A stretch of DNA of 55,124 nucleotides, taken from a virus. The translations under genes and the position numbers were made by a program. Every line of letters starts with the position of its first letter. Positions within the stretch are counted from its first letter, which is position 1. The stretch covers positions 1 through 55,124 of IMG/VR virus record IMGVR_UViG_3300021957_000047; one strand, 5' to 3'. The notes under the pieces were generated by a model. That model did no database searches. It was not told the DNA's origin and was given only the letters and a program-made list of their open reading frames with translations. Shown here in pieces: positions 1-7,493 of the stretch.

Positions 1-642
1 TGATCCAGAACCAGAGAAGCAGTCTAATACAGTCTCATCTTGCGGACAGTATGCATTGATCATTCTCTGTAATATGAATTGAGGCTTGACTGTAGGATGA
101 AAGTTAGATTCTTGTGCCTCTTTAGATACGGTGGTCAAATTACCTTCCCATACAGTTGTGGGTATCGTACCATTCGTGTAGTCTTTACCAGTACGCAAGT
201 TACGTTTCATCTTACGTTCTACTTCTACCTTAGTGCGATCAAAGAAGAACTCTTTACCCTTGCTGTAGCACCACGCTGTCTCAAACTTATGTGCGAAGTT
301 GTTACGGGGTCTACCACCCCAGTTATATGACCAATGAATAGCTGGCTGTGCAACTAGTCCATCAATCTGATTTAGTACCTCTAACTTGAGACGAAAGAAC
401 AGGTCAGTCTTTTGTGTACCCCAAACGCACATCATACGTCCATCTTTCAGTACACGGGCGCACTCAGTAATCCACTGTCTGCACCATTCTAGATAAGCAT
501 CTTCTGTGGGAAATGTATCCCAGCCAGCACCACCATCATACCCGATGTTATATGGAGGATCATTGTTGATATGACCAACAGAGTTGTCGGGCAATGACTT
601 TAGAAAGTCAAGGCAGTCTTGGTTGCTTATCTCAATTGTCAT
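1..642 (-). CDS. DNA adenine/cytosine amino-methyltransferase, 3' end cut by window
   Basis: Reading from the ATG at 642, 214 codons remain open to the window edge. The protein has the DPPY catalytic motif at residues 28-31, followed by NIGYDGG. The SAM-binding motif I lies near the C-terminal end (DCFSGSGS, about residues 207-214). That order (motif IV before motif I) is typical of beta-class N6-adenine or N4-cytosine DNA methyltransferases. The target sequence cannot be told. It lies downstream of a PD-(D/E)XK-like protein (810-1409) and overlaps the small gene 632-823, so it may be the modification half of a restriction-modification-like unit or simply protect phage DNA. Confidence 0.9.
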   Translation of the reverse strand, partial: MTIEISNQDCLDFLKSLPDNSVGHINNDPPYNIGYDGGAGWDTFPTEDAYLEWCRQWITECARVLKDGRMMCVWGTQKTDLFFRLKLEVLNQIDGLVAQPAIHWSYNWGGRPRNNFAHKFETAWCYSKGKEFFFDRTKVEVERKMKRNLRTGKDYTNGTIPTTVWEGNLTTVSKEAQESNFHPTVKPQFILQRMINAYCPQDETVLDCFSGSGS

Positions 643-823
643 AGCTACCGACCTTGACAAACTTACGTCTCGACTTTGAGAACTGCTTCATAGGCGTACT
701 GAATACTTTCAACTCAGCATCAGGCGCTTGATAAGCCACTAGATGGCCATTTTGATCTACATGATAATTACCCTTAGGCATATCCCAATCAGTCACTTCT
801 TTCAATATACTAATCAAATTCAT
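632..823 (-). CDS. Conserved small phage protein, unknown function
   Basis: A 63-residue basic protein. The ATG at 823 is chosen because GGAG sits about 8 bases upstream, whereas a longer frame start at 877 has no ribosome site. The C-terminal half contains a FSKSRRKF basic stretch. It overlaps the end of the PD-(D/E)XK-like gene by 14 bases and the start of the methyltransferase by 11, so the three are translationally linked. I do not recognise a fold. It could be a small accessory of the methyltransferase, but only the position suggests this. Confidence 0.7.
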   Translation of the reverse strand: MNLISILKEVTDWDMPKGNYHVDQNGHLVAYQAPDAELKVFSTPMKQFSKSRRKFVKVGSYDN

Positions 824-1409
824 TATACTCCGGATTTTTATATACTGTAGTATACATGGTTTTATCAGCCAAGTCAATCTTTACCGTATTGAGGTTAGTT
901 GTCTGTCCTGGCTTTCGCTTTGCATTGTTCTCTGTAAGTTGACGAATCACCTCATCAGTCTTGGGTCGAATGATCATCATGCAGGTTTCTTTGTAGAACA
1001 CCCCATAGTAGTGATCGACCTCTGCATAAGCATCAAGGGCAGATTGCTTATAAGCACCGTTGTATACACCCTCAACTTTCAGAGATGAGAATAGCTTGCC
1101 AGTTTTAGGATAGCGAACTCGCTGAAACAGGTTGTTCAGTTGCTTGTCTTCGATTGCTTTGGATTTGTATTCGGCAAACTTACCATTAGCTTCGTCCCAA
1201 GCATCAGAGCCGTACTCATCAGAGCCTGCACCCGCTGATATCTTGGTGTGTGCCTTGTGACCTAGCTTCTCTGCCATCACGGGCTCACGCCATTTGGTCT
1301 TGTCTGTGACTTTGTGAAAGCCGTCTATCTCACCCTTGACGTACAAGGCTGCCGCTAGTTCTTCATAAGTTAGTTGATCGGCTAAACTCTTTACTGCTTC
1401 CAAATTCAT
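810..1409 (-). CDS. Putative PD-(D/E)XK nuclease-like protein
   Basis: A 199-residue protein starting at the ATG at 1409 (GGAG about 10 bases upstream; ATGA overlap with the SprT-like gene). Residues about 67-85 read GSDAWDE, then about six residues, then EYKSK. This Asp...Glu-x-Lys spacing is that of PD-(D/E)XK restriction-type nucleases. The rest is not recognised. Location two genes upstream of a DNA methyltransferase would suit a restriction enzyme or a nuclease that reads the modification state. What I see is only the motif and context; the nuclease call is an inference and another fold is possible. Confidence 0.5.
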   Translation of the reverse strand: MNLEAVKSLADQLTYEELAAALYVKGEIDGFHKVTDKTKWREPVMAEKLGHKAHTKISAGAGSDEYGSDAWDEANGKFAEYKSKAIEDKQLNNLFQRVRYPKTGKLFSSLKVEGVYNGAYKQSALDAYAEVDHYYGVFYKETCMMIIRPKTDEVIRQLTENNAKRKPGQTTNLNTVKIDLADKTMYTTVYKNPEYNEFD

Positions 1410-2224: not shown

Positions 2225-2683
2225 CTAGCGTTTGATGCCTTTGACGATACGAACTATCTTGCTCATAAGCATCTTGATTACAGTGAAGTGAAATAGACCA
2301 TGACCGTATAGCCAATGGAATGTGTGGTTATTTTCTATCTGATCTTTACTACCGAACTTACGAGTCCAGTTGTCTACGTACTCGCCTTTGTATCTTAGTA
2401 CAGCGTGTGATATTTTAGACTTCGATGGTCCTACACAACAAATACCTGCTTGTCTTGTGAGTAGCATCCACCACATTTTTATATCGCTCTCTCCACAAAG
2501 TCGCCATAATAGCGACAAAGCGTAGTCTTCGCAATCCCCTTCGAACTTACCTTCTTCACTTTCGTTACGAATGATGCACCAAGCATCTGCCATTCCGTAT
2601 TGTTCTTTGTCATACCTATACTTCCATTTGGCAGTAAAGGCTGAAGTAACGGCGTCTCTATCCCGTATCTCCTCTCTCTTCAT
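2225..2683 (-). CDS. Transglutaminase-like cysteine peptidase-fold protein
   Basis: A 152-residue protein with GDCEDYAL (Cys at about residue 50) followed by ISHAVLRYKGEYVDN (His about 92, Asp about 101), the Cys-His-Asp arrangement of bacterial transglutaminase-like cysteine proteinases. The motif and its spacing are visible; the activity (protease, amidase or inactive) is inferred. It has GGAG upstream of the ATG at 2683 and overlaps the GIY-YIG-like gene by 26 bases. The C terminus is basic and hydrophobic. Confidence 0.6.
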   Translation of the reverse strand: MKREEIRDRDAVTSAFTAKWKYRYDKEQYGMADAWCIIRNESEEGKFEGDCEDYALSLLWRLCGESDIKMWWMLLTRQAGICCVGPSKSKISHAVLRYKGEYVDNWTRKFGSKDQIENNHTFHWLYGHGLFHFTVIKMLMSKIVRIVKGIKR

Positions 2684-3089
2684 CTCTCAGACTCCTTACA
2701 TGTGTCTTATGTATCTTACAATTGATTATGCCATTGTAGTAATCATCAGACAATAACACTTCTCTATCGAATTGTTCCTTTGCTTCAAGGTAACTCATTA
2801 CCCCTTTAGAACTACATAAATGTAAAATCTCTCTGCGAAACGAATCAGCACCGTGTTCTTCAACAAGTGCTTTGACTTCATCAGAAGAGCCAAAGTATGT
2901 TTTCCAATCACTCTCAATGACTTTTTTTCTTTTTCTAGTTTTACCCTTTAGCGGCGGTAATCTCCGTGTGGACTGAAACAGCTTCTTGCCTACATAAGAC
3001 TTCTCATTCTGATCAGTTATTATGTACACAAAGCCCACATATTCTTCTATCATATCACTGGTAAATTCTTTACCTTGGTAATGCCACAT
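2658..3089 (-). CDS. GIY-YIG-like endonuclease (SegE-type)
   Basis: A 143-residue protein. Near residue 18 it reads GFVYIITDQ, then KSYVGKK, matching the GIY...YIG core strands, followed by a basic loop (residues about 45-60) and later Glu residues that could bind metal (YLEAKEQFDRE). Related free-standing nucleases (T4 SegE-type) are common in T4-like phages and act as homing or DNA-processing enzymes. No group I intron context is visible here. It overlaps the next gene. Confidence 0.7.
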   Translation of the reverse strand: MWHYQGKEFTSDMIEEYVGFVYIITDQNEKSYVGKKLFQSTRRLPPLKGKTRKRKKVIESDWKTYFGSSDEVKALVEEHGADSFRREILHLCSSKGVMSYLEAKEQFDREVLLSDDYYNGIINCKIHKTHVRSLRDEERGDTG

Positions 3090-3444: not shown

Positions 3445-3910
3445 ATGCTTGCTCTACCTCTATGCTACATTTACGAAGAAATTCTACTCCGTCCTCGTTT
3501 CGGTATTTATTTTTGTAATAGACAGACGTGATTCCACTGGTATATATAAGTTTCGCACAGTCTAAACATGGCGCATGGGTTATATACATCGTACTGTTTT
3601 CGCCACTTTCATTCGATCTTGCTAACTTAGCGATAGCATTTGCTTCGGCATGAATCACTTCTGGCTTAGTCTTAGTGTCAGTGTATATATCAATGTCATT
3701 TGGGTGCACCTTGAAGTGTGGCTCGTTGATGACATCTTCACACTCATTAGACCAACCAGAAGGCATACCGTTATAGCCAATAGAAATGATCCGATTGTCT
3801 TTTACAACAATCGAACCAACCTGTAATCTCTTGGCTGAAGACAGAGAAGCGAACCTCTCTGCCGTATCCATATAAGCGTGTTGCCACTTATCCAAAGTTA
3901 TATGCCTCAT
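3434..3910 (-). CDS. cd: Deoxycytidylate (dCMP) deaminase
   Basis: Converts dCMP to dUMP, feeding thymidylate synthesis by ThyX in the same operon. The 158-residue protein has the zinc-site HAEANAI (His and catalytic Glu) and PCLDC further on, plus YNGMPSG of the dCMP deaminase family. The ATG at 3910 is chosen because AAAGG precedes it and the first 10 residues of a longer frame are unlike the family. It overlaps the nrdB end by 23 bases. Confidence 0.93.
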   Translation of the reverse strand: MRHITLDKWQHAYMDTAERFASLSSAKRLQVGSIVVKDNRIISIGYNGMPSGWSNECEDVINEPHFKVHPNDIDIYTDTKTKPEVIHAEANAIAKLARSNESGENSTMYITHAPCLDCAKLIYTSGITSVYYKNKYRNEDGVEFLRKCSIEVEQAYDQ

Positions 3911-5093
3911 TCCAATCGCCTTTGAGACCTGCAACTTCATATTCTGTTACACGGTTTTCAAAGAAGTTGGTATGATCTGCACCATTTAGAATCCATTCTA
4001 ACCACGGTAGTGGGTTGTCTTTTACTTTGAAGTTAGGTTTCATGCCTAGCTGAATCAAACGTCTGTCGCTAATATATCGTACATACTGCTTGACTTCGTT
4101 AGACTCTAGACCTTCGATCTCACCCATATCGTATGCTAGATCAACAAACTTGTCTTCTAGCTTTACTGCGTTGCGTGACATCTCGTAGATATCTTTCTTG
4201 AAGCTATCGTCTACAATGCGTGGATGCTCCTTACAGAATGTCTTGAATAACTTAGCGATACCCTCGACATGCATTGACTCATCACGAATCGACCACTCGA
4301 CAACTTTACCCATACCCTTCATCTTACCGTAACGCTGAAAGTTCAGTAGCATTACGAATGATGCAAACAATGCAACACCTTCGTTCATTACTGACTTAGC
4401 AAGGGCAAGACCTAGACCACGCATTGTATTGACATCTGAGTCCATGATAAAATCAATCTTATCAGCCATCTCTTGATACTCAAGGAATGCGTGATACTCA
4501 GAGTCAGGTAATCCTAGCGTTTCATTCAATAGTGCATATGCTCTCTGGTGAATACCTTCACGTGTAGCGAATGAGCCTAGCATGTTACGAACTTCGTTGT
4601 TCTTGAATTTAGGAATGAACTGGTCAAAGTAGTTCTGTCCAACAGCAACGTCTGACTGTGTGAAGAGGCGAAGAATGTTTGTCACATATTCTTTTTCAAC
4701 CTCTGTCATCTTGCCACCTTTCCAATCAGTGACATCTTCTCCCAGATCAATCTCATCTTCGATCCAGTGTGCTTTCTCATGGCGTGTAGTCATCTCTACT
4801 GCCCATGGATAATGAAAGGGCTTATATGTTTCAGAAAACTCTAGCAGACCACCGCCAGCTTTCTTTAGTAAAGTACTAGCCTGTGACATCAAATCATTAT
4901 ACGTACCGATCAGTTTGTCGTTGATAAAGATTTGGGGTACAGACCTAGCATTAGGCATCTTCTGATAGAATGCCATGCGCTCTTCTTCACTGTCTAGTTT
5001 GATCTCAGTGTAAGTTAGGCTATGTGTCGTAAACCACGCTTTCGCTTTCTCGCAGAAAGGGCAGTTCGACTTCGAATAAATTAGTACGTCCAT
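3888..5093 (-). CDS. nrdB: Glutaredoxin-ribonucleotide reductase beta subunit fusion
   Basis: A 401-residue class I RNR small subunit with an N-terminal glutaredoxin domain (residues 1-80, CPFC at 11-14). The di-iron ligands can be placed at D148, E179, H182, E238, E272 and H275, and the radical tyrosine at Y186 in EGIHQRAY. It makes the tyrosyl radical for NrdA; the fused glutaredoxin probably re-reduces NrdA. The ATG at 5093 has a GGGAG site 6 bases away; the longer frame to 5165 overlaps the oxidase gene. It lies after the alternative oxidase gene. Confidence 0.95.
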   Translation of the reverse strand: MDVLIYSKSNCPFCEKAKAWFTTHSLTYTEIKLDSEEERMAFYQKMPNARSVPQIFINDKLIGTYNDLMSQASTLLKKAGGGLLEFSETYKPFHYPWAVEMTTRHEKAHWIEDEIDLGEDVTDWKGGKMTEVEKEYVTNILRLFTQSDVAVGQNYFDQFIPKFKNNEVRNMLGSFATREGIHQRAYALLNETLGLPDSEYHAFLEYQEMADKIDFIMDSDVNTMRGLGLALAKSVMNEGVALFASFVMLLNFQRYGKMKGMGKVVEWSIRDESMHVEGIAKLFKTFCKEHPRIVDDSFKKDIYEMSRNAVKLEDKFVDLAYDMGEIEGLESNEVKQYVRYISDRRLIQLGMKPNFKVKDNPLPWLEWILNGADHTNFFENRVTEYEVAGLKGDWNEAYNFG

Positions 5094-5121
5094 TTTTTCT
5101 CCCAATGTATCATTCCTCTTT

Positions 5122-5706
5122 TTAGATTGACATTTGTAAATTTGCATCAGCATGACGTTGTTCATCTTCCCGAACTTTTATAATCATGTCTGACAGTTTA
5201 GCATCATCTGGTAGACTGTAATACTCTTTTGCCATTTTTGGACAAGGAGCATTATATATCTTACCTGATTGTATTCTATTCAAATACTGCGAATAGCTTA
5301 TCACCGCTTCTTGTTCGAAGTAGTGAATCATTCTGTGGCACGTCTTCGGAAAGAAGATATACAACAGAAGGTAATAGTGCCAGAATAAGAACTGAGCGAT
5401 AAAGATCAATAGTCTCTCTACCCAGTTTGGATTAGCAATCTCAATGAAGAACATCAAATGCATTCTCTCATTTTCTGCTTCTGCTAGTAACTCACGGATA
5501 TCTGGACCGTATCCTTTCTTAGCTTTACGTAGTGACTTTAGATGTATCCACATTCCTGCTACCATGCCTGGCACACCAGCAATTGTTTCTAATACAACTG
5601 CTCGGTGACCATAACGTTTAGCAAAGAATGTGTCCGCAAAGAAGCGAAACATCATTGTCATACCTTTAGCAAAGTAATCACTTATTATCCCTGACATGCA
5701 ACACAT
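5122..5706 (-). CDS. Alternative oxidase (AOX/PTOX family)
   Basis: A 194-residue di-iron quinol oxidase. The family ligands are present: E40 (VVLETIAGVPG), E80 and H83 (ENERMH), E131 or E133 (FEQEA), E182 and H185 (REDEQRH). Hydrophobic stretches at about 42-56 and 98-120 suit a monotopic membrane protein. The family oxidises quinol and reduces oxygen to water without pumping protons. The start overlaps the nrdA end; the ATG at 5697 is an alternative to 5706. It sits between nrdA and nrdB, 28 bases before nrdB. Cyanophages carry the related PTOX, but here the context is nucleotide metabolism. Confidence 0.9.
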   Translation of the reverse strand: MCCMSGIISDYFAKGMTMMFRFFADTFFAKRYGHRAVVLETIAGVPGMVAGMWIHLKSLRKAKKGYGPDIRELLAEAENERMHLMFFIEIANPNWVERLLIFIAQFLFWHYYLLLYIFFPKTCHRMIHYFEQEAVISYSQYLNRIQSGKIYNAPCPKMAKEYYSLPDDAKLSDMIIKVREDEQRHADANLQMSI

Positions 5707-7493
5707 TCGTCCTGTTGTTCTTCACTACCATTGATGAAGTTCATTTTGCTTGCGTCCATGTTTACCACATTATCTAGTGTCTCACGTTCAACTTTCTCAG
5801 CAACGTTCTCTGCTCTGTTAGTGGCTTCTGTTCTGAGATAATATAGACCCTTACATCCATTTGCCCACGCCGCATAGTGTACTTTACTTAGATAAGATTT
5901 TTCTGCGCCTGCGGGAAAGAAGATGTTCAATGACTGACCTTGACACAGGTATCTCTGTCTCTGACCAGCGAGTTCTACAATCCGCATTTGATCTAACTCA
6001 ATAGCAGTTGCGAATACTTTCTTCTCATGATCTACTAAGAAGTCTAGGTGCTCAACTGATCCACCATTGGTGATAATAGATGACCATATAGCTTCTGTGT
6101 TTTTGCCACGCTCTTCTAAGAGTGCCTCTAGATACTTGTTCTTGTTCAGGTGTGAACCCACACGTGTACGTGAAGTAAATGCATTTGCTTTCCATGGTTC
6201 AATAGATGGCGATGTGCCAGCGATCATCGAACTATTAGCATTAGGTGCAATGGCAAGCATGTGTGCATTTCTACGACCAGTACCCTTCATGTCAGGTGCT
6301 TCTCCTAGTGTCTTGCCAAGTCGTAAAGTCTCTTCTACTGCATTGTCGTAGATATCACAGAAGATATCTTCGTTGGCTTTTACTGCCTCTTCACTATCAA
6401 ATGCAATCATATGTTTCTGAAAATAAGAGTGGAGACCCATAGCACCGAGTCCAAGAGACCGCTCCTGCTGTGCTGAGTATCTAGCACGACTAATCTCATC
6501 ACCAGCGTTGTCTATAAAGAATTGTAGTACGTTGTCTAAGAATCTAACTAGATCAGCGATCATAGTAGTGTCTTTCCAATCGTCATACATCTCTAAGTTG
6601 ACAGACGATAGACAGCACACAGCGGTGCGATCTTCGCTAGTTGCTAAGTGAATTTCGTTACATAGATTAGACCCACGAATCTTCAGACCCAAGTCTTTCT
6701 GAGATTGAGGCATAGCACGATTAGCAGTATCGATAAAGTTGAGATACGGCTCACCAGTTCTGTAACGAGTTTCAAGAATTACTTCCCATAACTTACGTGC
6801 AGGCATAGTGTCACGTATTTCATTAGAATTAGGATCACGTAGATGCCATTCGCTGTCATCACGTACCGCTTCCATAAACTCATCAGTGATGTTTACTGCG
6901 TGGTGTAGATTCAAGTTCTTACGATTTACGTCACCAGTTGGCACTCGCATATTCAAGAACTCAATAATGTCTGGATGAGATGCTTCGATGTAAGCCGCAT
7001 ATGAACCTTTGCGTGTACGTCCTTGACGATAGGCAACCATGTCTGCGTCTACTGTATGTAGAAACGGCATAGGTCCTGGGGCTTTCTTAGATACTGCACG
7101 AACATCTGACCAGTGACCACCAACGCCACCACCTTTTACTGATAACCATCGTAGTTCTGCCGTATGATCGATAAGACCCTCAAGTGTGTCGGGTACATAT
7201 GTAAGAAAACAAGAGATAGGTAATGCCTTGGGTTTCTCATCTGGTAACGGCGCATTCGATAGTACAGGCGAGGCATACATAAACCAGCCCTTCGATACGT
7301 AGTCATAAATTCGTTGTGATAATTCTAAATCGCCATATGAATAGGCGACAGCCGCACGTGCAAAAGATTCTTGAGGCGTCTTCTCAGTATCATTGCAGTA
7401 GTAATCTGTTAGTAATTTTAGAGACTGTTCTGATAACAGACGGTCTCTAGAGGCATCAATTTTGATGCCGAGGTGTGTTCTTGTTCTCGACAC
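5685..7493 (-). CDS. nrdA: Ribonucleotide reductase alpha subunit, class I
   Basis: This 602-residue protein reduces ribonucleoside diphosphates. It shows ISCFLT (C95), NLCNE (N276, catalytic C278, E280), CCLSS (C293/C294) and a C-terminal CVACQG redox pair for glutaredoxin. It lacks an N-terminal ATP-cone, so overall-activity inhibition by dATP is probably absent, which suits a phage needing dNTPs. Its start lies 21 bases after thyX and its end overlaps the alternative oxidase gene by 22 bases. Confidence 0.96.
   Translation of the reverse strand: MSRTRTHLGIKIDASRDRLLSEQSLKLLTDYYCNDTEKTPQESFARAAVAYSYGDLELSQRIYDYVSKGWFMYASPVLSNAPLPDEKPKALPISCFLTYVPDTLEGLIDHTAELRWLSVKGGGVGGHWSDVRAVSKKAPGPMPFLHTVDADMVAYRQGRTRKGSYAAYIEASHPDIIEFLNMRVPTGDVNRKNLNLHHAVNITDEFMEAVRDDSEWHLRDPNSNEIRDTMPARKLWEVILETRYRTGEPYLNFIDTANRAMPQSQKDLGLKIRGSNLCNEIHLATSEDRTAVCCLSSVNLEMYDDWKDTTMIADLVRFLDNVLQFFIDNAGDEISRARYSAQQERSLGLGAMGLHSYFQKHMIAFDSEEAVKANEDIFCDIYDNAVEETLRLGKTLGEAPDMKGTGRRNAHMLAIAPNANSSMIAGTSPSIEPWKANAFTSRTRVGSHLNKNKYLEALLEERGKNTEAIWSSIITNGGSVEHLDFLVDHEKKVFATAIELDQMRIVELAGQRQRYLCQGQSLNIFFPAGAEKSYLSKVHYAAWANGCKGLYYLRTEATNRAENVAEKVERETLDNVVNMDASKMNFINGSEEQQDECVACQG

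Follow-up and report, generated by a model that had tools for sequence, protein, structure and literature searches.

The DNA analysed here (hereafter the window) is the entire virus record IMGVR_UViG_3300021957_000047, 55,124 bases in length, which is probably itself a fragment. Its gene content, with a thymidylate synthase, a DnaB-like helicase, a DNA polymerase, an SbcC-like protein, a portal and the ribonucleotide-reductase-like open reading frames (ORFs) listed in Table 1, fits a T4-like phage, here taken to be a marine one. Three overlapping minus-strand ORFs lie at the very start of the window, in the arrangement that an earlier, sequence-only reading had described: the 63-aa ORF shares 14 nt with the nuclease ORF on one side and 11 nt with the start of the methyltransferase on the other, the methyltransferase itself being truncated at base 1 of the record. 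On the upstream side, the stop codon of an ORF with a SprT-like match (E 0.0024, below the model cut-off) and a match to phrog_10499 (E 7.8e-25) overlaps the nuclease ATG by 4 nt. The gene for a SET-domain protein is found two genes upstream of the putative restriction-modification (R-M) unit.

Table 1 Features at the start of the window
Feature	Position	Strand	Basis
DNA methyltransferase of the beta class, N6-adenine type; first 214 of its 253 aa	1–642	−	Family matches
63-aa ORF at the nuclease/methyltransferase junction	632–823	−	Independent small phage gene family
Predicted PvuII-fold PD-(D/E)XK endonuclease, 199 aa, ATG at 1409	810–1409	−	Model, fold matches, alignment
SprT-like metallopeptidase-like ORF upstream of the nuclease	1406–1837	−	Weak SprT-like match and phrog_10499
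96-aa SET-domain protein	1925–2212	−	PF00856, E 1.8e-9
SegE-like GIY-YIG homing endonuclease	2661–3089	−	PF19835, E 1.8e-39
Ribonucleotide-reductase-like ORFs	3888–7493		Read by eye

The methyltransferase matches PF01555 (E 1.8e-35), and since its motif IV (DPPY) stands before motif I (FSGSGS, of the form FxGSGS), it belongs to the beta class, as had been proposed from the letters of the sequence. PADLOC labels it a Type II MTase (E 1.1e-45), and complete copies of 253 aa are found in loci L003 and L005. Among the PDB neighbours of the family profile, MboIIA, RsrI and CcrM are nearest, with M.PvuII, an N4-cytosine enzyme, far down the list. A kinship with the GTWWAC enzymes (PDB 8urk/9c3u) was considered and dropped, as the literature search gave no confirmation of it.

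The 63-residue protein, which the sequence-only reading had counted as part of the unit, turned out not to belong to it. In the related locus L006 the ORF is absent, and the nuclease gene runs directly into the methyltransferase gene, with overlapping stop and start codons, at the very point where the 63-aa ORF of the window begins. Relatives of the small protein (53–100% identity) occur in 27 loci with many different gene contexts, four of which are near-identical R-M loci while the other 23 are without either gene in the fetched flank. In view of the absence from L006 and of these 23 loci we rejected a role as control or partner protein, and judged by this distribution the ORF is an independent small phage gene that has become inserted between the two others, outside the R-M core.

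Predicted fold and conservation of the nuclease

The motif GSDAWDE...EYKSK, which had drawn attention to the upstream ORF, covers residues 67–84 of its 199-aa product. Neither a restriction family nor any other sequence family was matched by this protein in Pfam, PHROGs, NCBIfam or PADLOC, sequence and profile searches of the PDB returned nothing useful (the profile search misses PvuII), and there was no match in the phage records searched. Scanning of bacterial genome contigs gave 12 pattern matches, none of which was confirmed as a relative. Two scans of IMG/VR yielded 32 distinct contigs (27 and 5) that encode the nuclease. In an alignment of 20 sequences, 28–64% identical to the window protein, 17 positions are invariant, including D36, E42, D69, E80 and K82; the invariant E42, D69, E80 and K82, together with strands at residues 70–72 and 77–86 of the structural model, give the arrangement that defines PD-(D/E)XK nucleases.

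That the ORF is not a chance reading follows from its presence in these 32 contigs and from the fact that close copies differ mainly at synonymous sites. Between the window and L005, the synonymous and non-synonymous differences number 25 and 3 in the nuclease, 39 and 0 in the methyltransferase and 5 and 0 in the 63-aa ORF; for L006 the values are 68.5 and 33.5 in the nuclease, and 51 and 13 in the methyltransferase. Counted per site, synonymous differences greatly exceed non-synonymous ones in these comparisons, and by this measure nuclease and methyltransferase are both under purifying selection.

Structure prediction had been named beforehand as one of several checks, with lack of the restriction-endonuclease fold as the refuting outcome, and the predicted structure did resemble PvuII and other restriction enzymes. 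An AlphaFold2 model built with a 17-row alignment (pLDDT 88.6, pTM 0.86) has PvuII as its top PDB match in Foldseek (1pvu, E 1e-5), followed by Eco15I, NhoI and DpnI. VIA gave a Z score of 10.6 against PvuII over 142 aligned residues at 4.2 Å, and scores of 10.1 for NhoI, 9.8 for Eco15I, 8.2 for DpnI and 7.0 for Hjc. By profile alignment, hhalign places D69, E80 and K82 on D58, E68 and K70, the catalytic residues of PvuII, with an E-value of 0.011 and a probability of only 3.9%. A fold search of BFVD returned weak matches only, the best at E 3.9e-3. We read the model as that of a PvuII-fold PD-(D/E)XK nuclease, and likely a relative of PvuII.

The PvuII match is tied to within 1 Z unit with NhoI and Eco15I, both solved with methylated targets, and one could thus also speculate that the enzyme is modification-dependent, like these two and DpnI, and would cut host- or rival-methylated DNA, with the neighbouring methyltransferase marking a different site. 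The genomic neighbourhood of the nuclease bears directly on this alternative.

Linkage of nuclease and methyltransferase genes

Linkage was counted from the nuclease. As 3 of the 32 contigs end inside the nuclease gene, 29 could be judged, and a methyltransferase lies within 1.4 kb in 26 of these, directly adjacent in 23, where it should be kept in mind that several of the 29 are near-identical phages and do not represent 29 independent events. The methyltransferase is on the same strand and directly downstream in 21 contigs, adjacent and convergent in two (L020 and L021), at a distance of 0.5–1.4 kb in three, and not found in the locus in the remaining three. The association thus persists in two orientations and, with the methyltransferase upstream in L042, in two gene orders. 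L018 has none in the locus but carries a methyltransferase about 13 kb away; in L022 the gene downstream overlaps and scores 25.1 bits for PF01555, short of the cut-off of 26.7; and on the 6.4-kb contig L016 there is no methyltransferase of the family. More distant members of the nuclease family also stand beside methyltransferases (L080, L081, L082/L083 and L121). In L053, a DruA-like gene at 4699–5892 (PF14236, E 1.5e-25) separates the methyltransferase from the PvuII-like nuclease.

Linked methyltransferase and endonuclease genes, such as those in the 26 contigs, are what is expected of a Type II R-M system, and the ORF maps of the window and the related loci contain no translocase or ATPase subunit, with methyltransferase and endonuclease on separate polypeptides. 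Neighbours without any joint function, an anti-restriction methyltransferase beside a repair- or resolvase-type nuclease, would be compatible with the match of Hjc resolvases to the predicted fold, and with the many methyltransferases of the family that stand alone: among the best 80 of 278 methyltransferase loci, 20 are without a same-strand ORF of at least 80 aa ending just upstream, two of these 20 being at a contig edge. The maintenance of the pair within 1.4 kb through several arrangements argues against such an accidental neighbourhood, as does the fact that a family resembling known restriction enzymes takes the same slot (see the following section), and we regard it as very improbable.

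Distant relatives of the nuclease also occur in two cultured cyanophages, P-TIM68 (KM359505; profile E 8.9e-6) and P-SSM2 (profile E 1.1e-7). The P-TIM68 relative is immediately preceded by a methylase gene, and in P-SSM2 no methylase is adjacent. The methyltransferase family itself is represented in the cultured phage S-BM3 (OQ319121). The P-SSM2 (NC_006883) gene, L139 2498–3004, is annotated as hypothetical protein PSSM2_100.1 and contains GADAFDEEGGCEYKS. Its family has 122 relatives in IMG/VR, and in the best 80 of these 122 loci a methyltransferase of the type found in the window was matched in the flank (up to 2.5 kb) in only 5. On this count we rejected the notion that pairing holds for all PvuII-like nucleases of phages, and some of the relatives may work alone.

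Probable exchange of nucleases at the methyltransferase locus

Viewed from the methyltransferase, the locus is more varied. Among the same best 80 of 278 loci, 25 have the PvuII-like nuclease (family A) in the locus and 18 have a second, different PD-(D/E)XK family (family B) just upstream; six carry a third group, with EVKTT/EHKD motifs, two a fourth, and 29 another upstream ORF or none. Family B has the invariant residues E46, D69, E78 and K80, and its structural model (pLDDT 92.4) matches I-Ssp6803I (E 5.8e-5), NhoI and EcoRV. One of its members, L079, matches the PADLOC family REase_II PDLC03515 with E 9.9e-16. When the profiles of A and B are compared by hhalign, the E-value is 0.17, so that they are not recognisably one family. 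The small proteins of the third and fourth groups (EVKTT/EHKD and EDKK..NQIHP) occupy the slot in L084, L087, L096, L097, L101, L103, L124 and L132, and are perhaps further nucleases. Several loci, among them ones of either nuclease type, contain a further PF01555 methyltransferase, with SPPY, after the first (L050 5336–6295, L052 5336–6295, L118, L129, L130 and L135), and its relative in P-TIM68 (L138 1482–2396) adjoins the distant PvuII-like gene.

To place these nuclease types on the history of the methyltransferase, a tree with 64 rows was made, drawn from 80 + 5 loci and leaving out copies alike in residues 31–220 with the same label, proteins shorter than 225 aa, and L070 and L104. On this tree, which was built by a quick method and has several long branches, the nuclease types A, B and C/D interleave, with at least 14 changes among them over 41 rows; in a count with five labels, the starred branches alone force six changes for A and six for B. 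The types are still more clustered on the tree than in shuffles. Methyltransferases linked to A and to B can be closely similar, with identities, for pairs named in the order A/B, of 88.6% (L050/L102), 84.4% (L095/L134) and 78.8% (L050/L129). For the last pair, with L050 of type A and L129 of type B, the DNA is 75% identical upstream and 79% identical from the methyltransferase on, with no alignment across the nuclease gene in between. Such a pattern is what one would expect if enzymes sharing a specificity had been exchanged as cassettes, and because both families adjoin methyltransferases that are 79–89% identical, we infer that A and B are isoschizomers swapped as cassettes.

The exchange also bears on the remaining alternatives. 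The nuclease could instead be a homing-type endonuclease, free-standing and responsible for spreading the locus, with the methyltransferase as cargo or protection. In keeping with this are the variable gene order and orientation noted above, the resemblance of family B to I-Ssp6803I, a PD-(D/E)XK homing endonuclease, and the presence of a SegE-like GIY-YIG endonuclease nearby in the window. At this locus, however, it is the nuclease that is swapped while the methyltransferase stays, and homing endonucleases do not usually come with a partner methyltransferase; we consider this explanation quite improbable. The modification-dependent alternative draws some support from the fact that most of the distant cyanophage relatives are without this methyltransferase type nearby. 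The tight linkage and the stop/start overlap with one methyltransferase family nevertheless fit a cognate pair better, as does the finding that, next to this methyltransferase, a family resembling the Type II REases of PADLOC can take the place of the nuclease, and we consider modification dependence unlikely, if somewhat less so than homing or a fortuitous neighbourhood.

The explanation that we favour, and hold with reasonable confidence, is that nuclease and methyltransferase together constitute a phage Type II-like R-M unit. The R-M-like character suggested by the sequence-only reading thus finds support in the conserved linkage, in the slot replacement by a Type II REase-like family and in the PvuII-like predicted fold. 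According to this proposal, the methyltransferase would mark adenines within a short, fixed site as the phage replicates its own DNA, and the PvuII-fold protein, probably as a Mg2+-dependent homodimer, would cut the same site wherever it is unmarked. The target would most likely be the host chromosome, feeding the nucleotide genes of the phage, or the DNA of rival phages; the cutting, the dimer, the shared site, the timing and the target are inferred. A more far-reaching version, to which we would give about even chances, is that the R-M module of marine T4-like phages is an offensive one, in which the methyltransferase is fixed and at least two unrelated PD-(D/E)XK isoschizomer families, one of them PvuII-like and absent from the searched libraries, are swapped at one locus, for use against host or rival DNA.

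Relation to known restriction-modification systems

R-M systems are generally presented as a means of defence in bacteria. A repeatedly conserved, endonuclease-swapping R-M system in marine T4-like phages would, if true, amount to an offensive use of R-M, and would add a restriction-enzyme family unmatched in Pfam, NCBIfam, PHROGs or PADLOC; our literature search, covering open-licence PMC full texts, found no report of this phage family. The proposal also makes the prediction that unrelated nucleases cut one site protected by one methyltransferase, and thereby provides a test of part exchange in R-M systems.

Among characterised systems, the unit most resembles the Type II R-M system PvuII, with R.PvuII as the best fold match, the D..E-x-K core aligned, and the nuclease gene beside the methyltransferase gene. 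It differs from it in being phage-borne, in an identity of only about 15% in the structural alignment, with no match to a Pfam restriction-enzyme family, and in its DPPY methyltransferase, which is nearest to MboIIA, RsrI and CcrM rather than to the N4-cytosine type of M.PvuII. The REase_II family of PADLOC, represented by family B, takes up the position that the PvuII-like family has in other loci, upstream of methyltransferases of one family, and by profile comparison the two are not recognisably one family. A viral precedent is provided by the chloroviruses, whose genomes contain adjacent methyltransferase and restriction endonuclease genes, and whose packaged restriction enzymes are held responsible for the early degradation of host DNA (PMC7019647). 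The two cases are alike in that a virus carries the adjacent pair of genes; the hosts of chloroviruses are eukaryotic algae, and the likeness noted here is one of gene arrangement.
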